The notes below the pieces were generated by a model that had not been told where the DNA came from, ran no database searches, and saw nothing but the letters and a program-made list of their open reading frames with translations. A program made the position numbers and the translations under genes. Source: Desulfohalobium retbaense DSM 5692 (lineage in GTDB: Bacteria; Desulfobacterota; Desulfovibrionia; Desulfovibrionales; Desulfohalobiaceae). Taken from it: a stretch of DNA of 64,000 bases. Below, piece after piece: positions 57,092-63,155 of the stretch (position 1 is its first letter; the number at the start of each line of letters is the position of its first letter). Location of the stretch: NCBI RefSeq assembly GCF_000024325.1, contig NC_013223.1, forward strand, positions 1,364,001 to 1,428,000, given 5' to 3'.

Positions 57092-58681
57092 TCACACTTC
57101 TTCTCCCTCCTGCCGCGGCCCGTTCAAACAAAACGGGTCGCGGTCGCGGGTAATGTCCACTCCCGCGGCAGCGCTGACCGCCAGACAGCCGCCGCAAACC
57201 GGGCGCACCCGGCAGTCGAGGCACTCCGCCGGACCGGTGCGGTACTGTTTGGCGCGCGCGCTGTGGTAGATGGTCGTCAAGTCGTCGGCAGCGATGTGGC
57301 CGATACGGGACGGAAATTTGCGGCAGGCGTGAACTTCGCCGTCGGCCAGCAGGGAGAGAAAATTAAAGGCCGCGCCGCAGCCGAACCCGGTGCAGCCGCC
57401 GGTCACGGTCTGATTTTCGTCCCAGCACACGCTGTTGAGCACATTGTCCTTGATGCCCAGAAAAGGCATCTCCTCCCGGGCCCGCAGATACTCGGTCATG
57501 AACGCGGCATAGGCCTCGGGGCGGGGCAATTGCAGACTCGCTCCCTCACCGACCGCGGAGAGCCTATTGTAGGTGAACCGGTCCACTTTGCCGTGGAGGT
57601 CCCGGGCCAAGGGCAGGACCTGATCCATGTTCCGGTCGGTCAGAGTGAGCATGACCTGCGAGGGGATCTCCAACTCCTGAAGCAGGGACAAAAAACGCAG
57701 ACTGCGCTGGAAATGGCCCGGACCTCTGACCCAATCGTTGTGCTCTTCCAGTCCTTCAAGGCTGATCTGGTATCCGCCCAGGGGTTGGATGGCCTGGAGA
57801 TCCTCCAGGATCTTGCGCTGACACGGATTACCGAGAATCGCCAGGATGAAGCCGCGGGCGCTGGCCTCGCGGTACAATTCCGTGAAGTGGGGATGCAGCA
57901 GGGGATTGCCACCGGTAAAGGTGATTTGTCCCTGGACGTGGTGGGTGCGGCAGAAATGGTCCAGTGAGTCTAGGACGGCTATGGCATCAGTCCAGGGCAT
58001 GTGGCCGCGCTGACTCCGATCATAGCAGTGTCGGCAATGCAGATCGCAGGCCTGAGTCACATGCCACTGCAAGGTGAAAATGGGCGCCCGGGCATACCGG
58101 GGCCACGCCCAGGGGTGGTCCGGGGAGACGATGCGGGGATCGCGCACAAGACGTGAAGCGGGGGCGATCAGACTTCCCCGGCGCACCTCGCGCCGAAGGA
58201 GCCGTTGCAGGTCCAGCGGACGCAGGCCGTTGTCCAGAGCGACCTCTTTTGCAGACAATCCTTCAGCCGCAATCTTCAAGGCCAAAAGCATATTCGTCGA
58301 AGCGGGCTCGACCCGGACCTCGGCCGTCACCGGATCTTTCCAGATCAGAACGGTTTCCGCAGCCAGACTCGGCTCGGCCTGCTCGTCGCCGCCACCCCCG
58401 TTGAGCAGATCGCTCAGTCCTTGCCACCGGCTCGGGACCAGACACAACGTAGGATTGAGGGCGATTTCAGCAGTGGTTTCGTGCGGAGGAGCCGCGGCGC
58501 GCGCGCATGTGAAGGCCTCCTGTTCCAGCCGGGCCAGGTCAGGAAGATAAGGGAGCAATTCGGCGTCTTGCACGCCGGCGTCAAGCAGGGCCAGGGCGGC
58601 TTCGGAGGTCTCCGCCGCGTCGAGGCGGCGCTGAAAAATCTCAGGAAGAAGCTGTCGAGTTGCCGGAAAAAGTGATTGCAC
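57092..58681 (-). CDS. sbtM: SbtM-like radical SAM/SPASM maturase of the selenobiotic peptide
   Basis: 529 residues starting at GTG. The radical SAM cluster motif is CDLHCRHCYDRS (CxxxCxxC) near residue 215, followed by GQITFTGGNPLLHPHF (GGNP). The C-terminal SPASM region has CTGFGCGAAFNFLSLLADGE, VHACRKFPS and CLDCRVRPVCGGC, the cysteine set of auxiliary FeS clusters. The about 200-residue N-terminal part is typical of the selenobiotic maturase (SbtM). The UGA-containing peptide gene sbtA lies just upstream at 58937-59197 on the same strand, its proper partner. GGGGGGCAGG precedes the start. The chemistry (thio(seleno)oxazole-type modification) is recalled from the family definition, not shown here. 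Confidence 0.9.
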   Translation of the reverse strand: MQSLFPATRQLLPEIFQRRLDAAETSEAALALLDAGVQDAELLPYLPDLARLEQEAFTCARAAAPPHETTAEIALNPTLCLVPSRWQGLSDLLNGGGGDEQAEPSLAAETVLIWKDPVTAEVRVEPASTNMLLALKIAAEGLSAKEVALDNGLRPLDLQRLLRREVRRGSLIAPASRLVRDPRIVSPDHPWAWPRYARAPIFTLQWHVTQACDLHCRHCYDRSQRGHMPWTDAIAVLDSLDHFCRTHHVQGQITFTGGNPLLHPHFTELYREASARGFILAILGNPCQRKILEDLQAIQPLGGYQISLEGLEEHNDWVRGPGHFQRSLRFLSLLQELEIPSQVMLTLTDRNMDQVLPLARDLHGKVDRFTYNRLSAVGEGASLQLPRPEAYAAFMTEYLRAREEMPFLGIKDNVLNSVCWDENQTVTGGCTGFGCGAAFNFLSLLADGEVHACRKFPSRIGHIAADDLTTIYHSARAKQYRTGPAECLDCRVRPVCGGCLAVSAAAGVDITRDRDPFCLNGPRQEGEEV

Positions 58682-58850: not shown

Positions 58851-58869
58851 CTAAAAGATTGGCAACAAC

Positions 58870-58895
58870 AAAGGGCCGGGGTCTCCCGGCCCTTT
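58870..58895 (-). terminator. terminator downstream of sbtA
   Basis: AAAGGGCCGGG (58870-58880) and CCCGGCCCTTT (58885-58895) form an 11-bp stem with a 4-base loop; on the minus strand TTTGTTGTTG follows. It ends the sbtA transcript about 40 bp after its stop codon, leaving sbtM more weakly transcribed or on its own promoter. Confidence 0.8.
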
Positions 58896-58911
58896 GCCAC
58901 GCTCATGATCA

Positions 58912-58929
58912 GAGGTGCGACCGCACCTC
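58912..58929 (-). promoter_or_regulatory. SECIS-like hairpin for the second UGA of sbtA
   Basis: In the mRNA GAGGUGC pairs with GCACCUC around the tetraloop GGUC. The stem starts 13 nt after the UGA at 58945-58943 and the GU of the loop is 22-23 nt after it. The GGU-containing apical loop and this spacing match the SelB-binding element of the E. coli fdhF mRNA. Confidence 0.8.
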
Positions 58930-58936
58930 GTCCATC

Positions 58937-59197
58937 TTAGCCTCAGCCACTGCCGCCGCGCTCCTCCTCAGAGGTGCCGGCATCATGGGTTGAAGTCGCA
59001 TTGCCGTTTTGAAGATGTTCCTGATCACTGGTCGTTCCGTCGGTTTGGCCAGTGCCGCCGGCACTGGTTTCGGTACTCCCGCCGCTGCCTCAGCCCGAAG
59101 ACCCCACGACCACGCTCGGCGCGGCCAGGCTGGCCCCGGAGAGCAGTGCCGTCAGGCACAGCCCGGTTAGATAGGTTTTGACTTCACTGGCGGCCAT
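58937..59197 (-). CDS. sbtA: SbtA selenobiotic peptide, two in-frame UGA (Sec) codons
   Basis: An 86-codon gene read as Sec at codons 36 (59092-59090) and 85 (58945-58943), ending in UAA at 58939-58937. The N-terminus is leader-like (SEVKTYLTGLCLTALLSGAS), then VVVGSSG-Sec-GSGGSTETSAGG, a polar Gly/Thr/Ser-rich middle and a final EERGGSG-Sec-G. Both UGA codons sit in the same SG-Sec-G context, the motif of the selenobiotic target peptides modified by SbtM. The strong ribosome binding site CAGGAGGGAGCCT precedes the ATG. A normal stop reading would give a 35-residue fragment. SECIS-like hairpins follow each UGA. The partner maturase sbtM is the next gene on the strand. Confidence 0.88.
59049..59067 (-). 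promoter_or_regulatory. SECIS-like hairpin for the first UGA of sbtA
   Basis: CCAGUGCC and GGCACUGG pair perfectly around a GGC loop, 30 nt downstream of the UGA at 59092-59090. A smaller hairpin CGG-GAGUA-CCG (9-19 nt after the UGA) carries a GU in its loop and is an alternative. Either is within the 16-37 nt range usual for bacterial SECIS loops. Confidence 0.6.
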
Positions 59198-59260
59198 AGG
59201 CTCCCTCCTGTGTTTCAATGGCGACATATCGGCTCATTCTATTCTGAAGACCTATCACCA

Positions 59261-62086: not shown

Positions 62087-62123
62087 AGAAGGGCTTTTGG
62101 ACCAGTCAGCCAGGGGAGTGCGT

Positions 62124-63155
62124 ATGGAAGGCCTGTCCGCCTTGTGGCCAAAACGGCATCCGGAACTTGATTGGGTGCAGGTGGCTGTGACCTCATATTG
62201 CGACGCCAAGTGCGCGTATTGCCCCCATACCAGGCTGCGATCCGGATGGCGCTCTCAACATATCGACCCCGACCTGTTTGCCAGCTTTTTGAAACGGTTG
62301 AAAAAAACAACCCTGGTGTATCTTCAGGGATGGGGAGAGCCACTTTTACATCCCCAATTCTGGCACATGCTGGCTCAGGTTAAAGCCAAAGGAATGCTGG
62401 CTGGATGCACCAGCAATGGCAATCAACTCACCACGGACACATTGCACCGGGCTGTGGATCAGGGTCTGGATATCATGGCCTTTTCTTTGGCCGGCACAGG
62501 AAAGCACAATGATGCCATCCGGCGGGGCACTTCCTTTGCGCATGTCATGTGGGCCATCGAAACGCTCCAACGCCTCAAGGTCCGACTCAAGAGTAGCACC
62601 CCCAAAATACATTTGGCGTATATGGTCCTGCGTTCCCATCTAGGGGATCTTGAAGACGTACCGTCTCTGGTTCGCGAGAGTGGTATCGAGCACACGGTGC
62701 TCTCGAATCTGACGCTCCCTTTGGGGGCCCATTGGCATCGGCAGGCGATGCTCGCCGACAGCAAACAGGAGTATCAGCGGCTCCAATACTGGCTGGATGA
62801 GATTTTCTCTCCACCAGAAGTGCGAGCAAAGGTCTATACCCATTTTTATACCCCATGGCTCCCACAGGGAGAATGCTCCGAAAATGTCCAGCGTGCGGCC
62901 TGCCTCAGCCAGTGGGGGGAAGTGTCGCCCTGCGTTATGACCCAAATTCCAGTGCAGGGTCCGGTCCGCTACTGGTTCCAAGGCCAGGAACAGATGGTGC
63001 AGCGCATGCAATTCGGCACCCTTGCTGATGAAGATTTCAAAACCATTTGGCATAAACCGGAATATAAACGCTTTCGCAAGCATCTGGACCTGGCGATGTG
63101 CTCAAGGTGTGCAAAACGACAAATTGACACCCACCGAGCTTCATCCCAAGAATAG
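62124..63155 (+). CDS. radical SAM protein with C-terminal Cys-rich (SPASM-like) domain
   Basis: 343 residues. The cluster motif CDAKCAYCPHTRLRSG (CxxxCxxC) lies near residue 26, and LQGWGEPLLHPQF is the GGE-type motif. A C-terminal Cys set is CSENVQRAACLSQWGEVSPC and then CSRCAKRQ, suggesting a partial SPASM/twitch-type auxiliary cluster. Substrate unknown. ATG 62124 follows AGGGGAG; the frame opens nine codons earlier at TTG inside repeat R4. The next gene on the strand (63253) may be its partner or substrate, but this is not established. Confidence 0.85.
   Translation: MEGLSALWPKRHPELDWVQVAVTSYCDAKCAYCPHTRLRSGWRSQHIDPDLFASFLKRLKKTTLVYLQGWGEPLLHPQFWHMLAQVKAKGMLAGCTSNGNQLTTDTLHRAVDQGLDIMAFSLAGTGKHNDAIRRGTSFAHVMWAIETLQRLKVRLKSSTPKIHLAYMVLRSHLGDLEDVPSLVRESGIEHTVLSNLTLPLGAHWHRQAMLADSKQEYQRLQYWLDEIFSPPEVRAKVYTHFYTPWLPQGECSENVQRAACLSQWGEVSPCVMTQIPVQGPVRYWFQGQEQMVQRMQFGTLADEDFKTIWHKPEYKRFRKHLDLAMCSRCAKRQIDTHRASSQE

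Follow-up and report, generated by a model that had tools for sequence, protein, structure and literature searches.

Desulfohalobium retbaense DSM 5692 carries a genuine gene, sbtA, for a small peptide that looks exported; its two UGA codons very probably encode selenocysteine (Sec). The gene lies at 58937..59197 on the minus strand of the window, by which we mean the whole stretch of 64,000 nucleotides that was analysed (contig NC_013223.1, positions 1,364,001 to 1,428,000), and it is accompanied by a gene for the radical SAM maturase SbtM. We put at roughly 80% the probability that the two form a working pair, in which both UGA codons would be read as Sec, SbtM would make selenooxazole-type rings and the peptide would be exported. 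The SbtA family, with two Sec residues and the SGUG motif, is already in print: a table in the accessible part of a 2026 review lists 'Selenobacteriocin, TIGR04081, SGUG, 2' (PMC13188914). The locus itself is a further SbtA member, and what looks new is that SbtM residues 1–175 are homologous to PME1 (DUF2063-RRE), the partner protein of MNIO enzymes, by which the thiooxazoles of the copper-buffering bufferins are made. SbtA and SbtM were reportedly first described by Haft and Basu in 2011.

The sbtA reading frame and the selenocysteine machinery

Read on the minus strand, sbtA extends from an ATG at 59197 to a TAA at 58937 and comprises 86 codons plus the stop, exactly the frame that an earlier note on this DNA had claimed, with UGA at codon 36 (59090..59092) and at codon 85 (58943..58945), one residue before the TAA. 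Both codons stand in an SG-Sec-G context, the core reading SSGUGS at the first and GSGUG at the second. An AGGAGG at 59204-59209, just 5' of the ATG, was rated a good ribosome-binding site. The leader-like N-terminus and the kinship with SbtA, which had been proposed from the letters, were borne out by profile comparison: residues 1–27 (59117..59197), a signal-peptide-like hydrophobic stretch spanning the whole TIGR04081 profile, scored 39.2 bits (cut-off 30.5), and this was the single TIGR04081 match over cut-off in the genome (2,909,567 bases in two contigs). Codon-position GC gives no signal of its own between the two UGA codons, so that for this stretch the evidence is comparative. Relatives carry Cys or Sec at the motif that matches UGA36, and related SbtA types likewise finish in or near Sec, as the frame does at UGA85.

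The earlier note had proposed a search for selA, selB, selC and selD, and all four genes were found over cut-off in the genome that carries sbtA: selA with 589.9 bits, selB with 389.2 bits, selD with 333.4 bits and the tRNA-Sec gene selC with a score of 83.6, the same tRNA being called SeC, anticodon TCA, by ARAGORN. The tRNA-Sec model alone is not strict, because 5 of 14 control genomes also score over cut-off with it; for the sel protein models the number is 1 or 2. Since selD (contig C1:2337154-2338071, minus strand) contains one in-frame TGA, the SelD of D. retbaense is probably itself a selenoprotein. Co-occurrence of SbtM with the Sec machinery was tried as evidence and rejected as uninformative, SelA being near-ubiquitous: it was found in 27 of 28 SbtM genomes, the sole miss being an 81%-complete assembly, and, over the whole phylum sample, in 269 of 297 genomes. 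The Sec machinery is necessary but not distinctive for SbtA/SbtM.

Hairpins downstream of the UGA codons

Each UGA codon is followed by a hairpin. The one after UGA85 (58912..58929, minus strand; gaggtgc GGTC gcacctc) has a 7-bp stem and a GGUC loop that starts 23 nt on, lies in the non-coding 3' UTR and passes our test for a canonical SECIS, defined as a stem of at least 6 pairs and a 3–5 nt loop that starts 19–26 nt from the UGA and has a G among its first two bases. The one after UGA36 (59049..59067, minus strand; ccagtgcc GGC ggcactgg) has an 8-bp stem and a GGC loop; with this loop 33 nt from the UGA it fails the canonical test and is kept as a candidate SECIS. The motif and hairpin criteria were set after the family distribution had been seen, so it is the contrast with controls, not the absolute number, that counts as evidence.

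Of the 232 motif UGA codons in the SbtA family, 182 were followed by a canonical SECIS; 20 rounds of shuffling gave 4.5 on average and 12 at most. Among UGA codons within four residues of the end, to which UGA85 belongs, the figure was 46 of 53 (shuffles: mean 1.45, maximum 7, 20 rounds), UGA85 being one of the 46. The test was also passed by 3 of 40 other in-frame TGA codons and, among the TGA stops at which other ORFs end, by 18 of 244, so that a single hairpin is little proof by itself. Stems of the length seen at UGA85 arose in 240 of 2000 shuffles, and in 39 of 2000 with loop base and distance fitting as well. The family hairpins with six or more pairs lay mostly at the canonical distance (182 of 206 at 19–26 nt from the UGA), and 13 of the 206, the UGA36 hairpin of the window among them, had a loop start at 30 nt or more; those of L050, L065 and L066 place family-typical stems with the loop at 33–35 nt. 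Folding energies were not outstanding for either 48-nt segment (UGA36: z -0.59, 47 of 200 shuffles as good; UGA85: z -1.61, 16 of 200), the 44-nt segments gave z -1.39 and -1.03, respectively, and Rfam at gathering scores returned no match within the window.

A separate, strong hairpin of 14 bp (58867..58898, minus strand) lies between sbtA and sbtM, where the segment 58857-58908 folds with -30.9 kcal/mol (z -5.42). It was not flagged in a scan for terminators with a T-run, and is perhaps a terminator or attenuator. It may end or thin transcription, so that the precursor would outnumber the enzyme.

The SbtA family in relatives

We collected 122 SbtM loci, some species being present twice: 80 from genome contigs (80 kept of 131 found), 27 from a phylum sample and 15 from same-order relatives. 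A recognisable SbtA frame was present at 109 of the 122; at L141 there is no room for sbtA upstream. The counts below refer to 113 SbtA frames (100 in the SECIS and leader counts), which count some genes more than once through alternative starts (as at L109, and also at L142 and L144 where long enough) and contain one spurious frame in L067 and duplicate species under different ids (for example L062/L134, L064/L135 and L089/L114). Motif UGA codons were absent from 10 of these frames, single in 10, and numbered two in 42, three in 41 and four in 10. The earlier note had thought two Sec residues per peptide unusual, as well as a Sec one residue before the stop. Neither view held: at least two motif UGA codons occur in 93 of the 113 frames, that of the window included, and the last one stands within four residues of the end in 59 and no more than one residue from it in 22, by which counts both features are ordinary for the family.

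The same note had pointed to homologues as a check on the Sec assignment. An SbtA is present at 14 same-order loci, and its first core position is occupied by Cys in 8 of them, by Sec in 6 (SG-U-G or CG-U-G) and by no other residue. Cys takes the place of Sec in these relatives and also in Cys-type SbtA copies. The eight Cys-first peptides end in UGA-UAA and read ...GSU if the UGA is Sec; a hairpin follows 21–22 nt on, with loops GGT, GGC, AGGTC or GTT and with stem letters that vary among the relatives.

Several arrangements elsewhere in the family are recorded here in their own right. At L089 and L096 a Sec-type SbtA with ASGUGG repeats stands beside a Cys-type copy with ASGCGG repeats, upstream of one SbtM. 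At L062, L064, L104, L105, L131, L132, L134, L135, L138, L139, L140 and L145 the SbtA frame ends in UGA-UAA and has a hairpin loop starting 21–24 nt on; with such an end and hairpin, Sec may be the very last residue. At the 3' ends of the SbtA genes of L037, L059 and L068, a UGA that seemingly encodes Sec in SG-U-X is followed two codons on by a UGA-UAA that seemingly means stop, so that both meanings of UGA fall within nine bases and one hairpin.

SbtM was found in 28 of the 297 phylum-sample genomes and in 15 of the 60 same-order relatives, and the pair is thus patchy in distribution. Identity of the window's SbtM to its relatives was 41–53% (best segments, 80 kept of 131 loci) and 43.6–51.5% within the order. 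Apart from SbtM, no cluster of ORFs of at least 90 residues recurred in more than 9 of 80 loci, and hence the neighbourhoods gave no sign of a peptidase, exporter or regulator dedicated to the pair.

Alternative readings of the UGA codons

A different account of the locus makes UGA36 mostly a stop, so that a 35-residue leader fragment would be the main product and read-through would serve as a selenium-dependent switch for the full peptide. The hairpin evidence at this codon lends itself to that account, given the lack of a canonical SECIS, the distance of 33 nt and a segment that folds like its shuffles. It is offset by the rarity of the 8-bp stem, equalled in 21 of 2000 shuffles, and by the 12 other family hairpins, those of L050, L065 and L066 included, whose loops start at 30 nt or more. 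Because relatives carry Sec (6) or Cys (8) at the matching position, a needed residue fits better there than a stop, and we regard a predominant stop at UGA36 as unlikely.

We hold it quite improbable that UGA85 is the real stop, with a peptide ending in ...RGGSG and UGA36 alone recoded. The arrangement UGA-GGC-UAA leaves one further codon, and apparent true-stop UGA codons directly after Sec do exist in the family (SGUS-UGA), but SG-U-G is the Sec context of the family, the canonical SECIS sits at 23 nt in non-coding DNA, and the hairpins 21–22 nt beyond the UGA-UAA of the eight same-order relatives differ in their stem letters. That the frame is decayed or arose by chance beside a radical SAM gene, with no selenopeptide at all, would agree with the missing codon-position signal between the UGA codons; this reading has almost nothing to commend it once the curated SbtA leader match, the adjacent SbtM, the sel genes, the repeated SGUG, the SECIS and the exchange of Sec and Cys in relatives are set against it. 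The reading adopted here is accordingly an SbtA precursor with Sec at both positions.

SbtM and the homology of its N-terminal part to PME1

The SbtM-like maturase that had been claimed at 57092-58681, on the same strand as sbtA, proved to be a clear family member, with 792.4 bits against TIGR04082 (cut-off 350). The gene, which starts with GTG, encodes a thio(seleno)oxazole radical SAM/SPASM maturase in which two Pfam domains exceed cut-off: the radical SAM core (residues 208–361, 57599..58060; PF04055, 55.2 bits) and the SPASM auxiliary-cluster domain (residues 435–490, 57212..57379; PF13186, 28.4 bits). Its radical SAM/SPASM fold is that of SkfB (Z 24.9, 3.4 Å, 283 residues) and SuiB (Z 24.2, 3.9 Å, 314 residues), and the enzyme of entries 5wgg and 5why, which we take to be CteB, is likewise a radical SAM/SPASM peptide maturase. 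The products of these three enzymes are other cross-links than that of SbtM. A further radical SAM/SPASM protein is encoded in the window at 62097-63155 on the plus strand; the nearest model is that of a tungsten-cofactor oxidoreductase maturase, which it matches far under cut-off (137.4 of 380 bits).

Ahead of the radical SAM core lies the part that matches PME1, a truncated DUF2063 plus RRE (residues 1–175, 58157..58681), which is presumed to bind the precursor. AlphaFold modelled residues 1–189 with a mean pLDDT of 93.5, as helices followed by a unit of three strands and three helices. We built an N-terminal profile from 36 SbtM proteins, leaving out L038 because its stretch includes a stop codon, and compared it with six DUF2063 proteins from 5 of 148 genomes. 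All six outranked every one of the 511 other ORFs of SbtM loci, with E values, for an assumed 20,000 sequences, of 7.8e-17 (61.7 bits), 4.4e-6, 2e-4, 0.0037, 0.013 and 0.11; the best of 1000 shuffled partner sequences reached 8.5 bits. In the reverse direction, a profile of the six DUF2063 proteins recovered 18 of 36 SbtM proteins at E <0.01 and none of the 511 controls, and placed 33 of the 36 above every control, some of them through short matches; the SbtM of the window was matched at residues 35–142 with E 0.011. Profile-profile alignment with hhalign gave 98.9% and E 2.9e-17 over SbtM residues 1–175. The best partner protein, that of L150 and the one tested in this way, matched positions 24–175 of the NCBI SbtM model with E 2.1e-11, its score lying far under the whole-protein cut-off, as expected.

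Structure comparison agreed with the profiles. The best PDB match of the N-terminal part was NGO1945 (3dee; Z 13.1, 3.2 Å, 159 residues), followed by chain A of the TglHI entries 8hci and 8hi7 (Z 11.2, 4.0 Å, 171 residues), which by its fold is the partner TglI; domains of other peptide pathways came after these at Z no higher than 8.5, and 5wgg had Z 4.3. NGO1945 is described as a typical MNIO partner protein, and TglI as the partner of TglH, in the available text of PMC12452194. When the N-terminal SbtM profile was searched against PDB sequences, 3dee was missed and a designed scaffold (E 0.055) came up as the single match; for this reason it is structure, together with the DUF2063 proteins, that carries the link to NGO1945. 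Pfam matches were weak: among the 36 full SbtM proteins DUF2063 appeared in 2 (best E 0.035) and NGO1945_C in 3 (best E 0.018), among 10 N-terminal pieces NGO1945_C appeared in one at 8.1e-4 and DUF2063 in one at 0.22, and residues 1–189 of the window's SbtM had no Pfam match. The D. retbaense genome contains no DUF2063 match and, at E <= 0.001, no match to the MNIO family (PF05114). As far as the accessible text of PMC12538549, PMC12668002, PMC12452194, PMC12710340 and PMC11002830 extends, it has no statement of the link between SbtM and PME1, which the earlier primary SbtM literature may have.

The L150 partner protein, the closest to SbtM of the six (and found at the same place as in L152), adjoins an MNIO that scores 318.4 bits against the bufferin-maturase model NF050167 (cut-off 310), and the same locus holds a small ORF that begins like a signal peptide and has a core of GQCGSGNCGSGNCGS. 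Among the six partner proteins, the comparison with NCBIfam covered L150, and that with Pfam covered L149 and L150. A small ORF in L152 (3512-3769, minus strand), near a BufB-type MNIO, has a signal-peptide-like start and GSGNCG repeats and is over no family cut-off; it may be an undescribed bufferin-like precursor whose core resembles that of Cys-type SbtA.

SbtA leaders resemble signal peptides

To judge by their sequences, SbtA leaders look like signal peptides. Hydrophobicity on a 12-residue scale reached at least 1.8, a threshold placed just under the 1.87 of the window's own leader, in 97 of 100 SbtA frames and in 115 of 511 other ORFs. A lipobox-like motif occurred in 42 of 100 frames; shuffles had it in 13 of 100 (maximum 23), and the other ORFs in 26 of 511. 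An AxA site for SPase I was not enriched in the SbtA leaders (34 of 100; shuffles 38.9). The leader of the window is without a lipobox-like motif and has, by eye, a plausible SPase I site, SLA-APS.

For MNIO systems, the portions at hand of PMC12452194 describe PME1 partners as accompanying precursors with Sec signal peptides and put at about 16% the share of Buf2 bufferins predicted to be lipoproteins. Precursors of DUF2063-type RREs, according to those of PMC12710340, are marked by Sec signal peptides and not by a specific recognition motif.

Discussion

The pair described here agrees with the SbtA/SbtM ('selenobacteriocin', TIGR04081/TIGR04082) systems in its leader profile, adjacent SbtM, SG-Sec-G core and two Sec residues, and nothing of weight sets it apart, although its UGA36 hairpin is more distant than that of most members. 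What such an enzyme can do has been seen with another SbtM in vitro, which according to the accessible text removed four hydrogens from Cys- and Sec-containing peptides and turned the Cys peptide into a thiooxazole (PMC11002830); a modified SbtMa peptide was grouped with 5-thiooxazole peptides by its absorbance at ~305 nm, as an available part of a second source states (PMC12668002).

A course of events can be proposed for D. retbaense. SelB and tRNA-Sec would insert selenocysteine at UGA36 and UGA85, aided by the downstream hairpins, and read-through at both codons would presumably reach a useful rate. The PME1-like part of SbtM (residues 1–175) would hold the hydrophobic SbtA N-terminus, while the radical SAM/SPASM part would convert every Sec into a selenooxazole-type ring by an oxygen-free four-electron oxidation. 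As the SbtA N-terminus also resembles an export signal, the finished peptide would probably leave the cytoplasm by the general Sec route.

Set beside the bufferins and captophorins, which are served by an MNIO and PME1, SbtM is alike in its homologous residues 1–175, and SbtA appears alike in its signal-peptide-like leaders, some with a lipobox-like motif (compare PMC12452194, in its available text). The two systems differ in the catalyst, which is an MNIO for bufferins and a radical SAM enzyme in SbtM, and in layout, the partner of bufferin maturation being a separate protein whereas in SbtM a PME1-like part, in which about the first 45–57 residues of the bufferin partner are missing, forms one protein with the catalyst. 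They differ also in the modified residue, for bufferins carry Cys where the SbtA of the window has Sec.

Our tentative proposal, to which we give somewhat less than even odds, is that SbtA/SbtM corresponds to the bufferin/captophorin system, with selenium and without oxygen. The PME1 part, as the binder of signal-peptide-led precursors, would be common by descent, and the ring would be of the same type, on Sec. The selenooxazole peptide, once exported and perhaps as a lipoprotein in many relatives, would buffer soft metals (copper, mercury or silver, for example) in the cell envelope of anaerobes. The kinship of SbtM with the bufferin system is the reason why soft-metal buffering in the cell envelope is the role we favour among the possible ones, with reservations of the same order. 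Bufferins are described, in the accessible part of PMC12452194, as sequestering copper in the periplasm through thiooxazoles. An argument against a metal role comes from the available text of PMC12538549, whose authors were hesitant about copper protection for their own MNIO/DUF2063 peptide. The cellular role of SbtA/SbtM itself is not mentioned in the accessible portions of PMC11002830, PMC12668002, PMC12452194, PMC12538549 and PMC12710340.

The locus adds one more member to the selenopeptide family, in a cultured type strain. Through the homology of its presumed substrate-binding part to PME1, SbtM ties the pair to a widespread class of copper-handling peptides, in which an unrelated enzyme that depends on oxygen makes a ring of the same type. 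If the proposed counterpart relation is true, unrelated catalysts with opposite oxygen needs would have reached one modification with one common substrate-recognition part, and the role would be testable as metal binding by, and metal-induced expression of, a selenium peptide.
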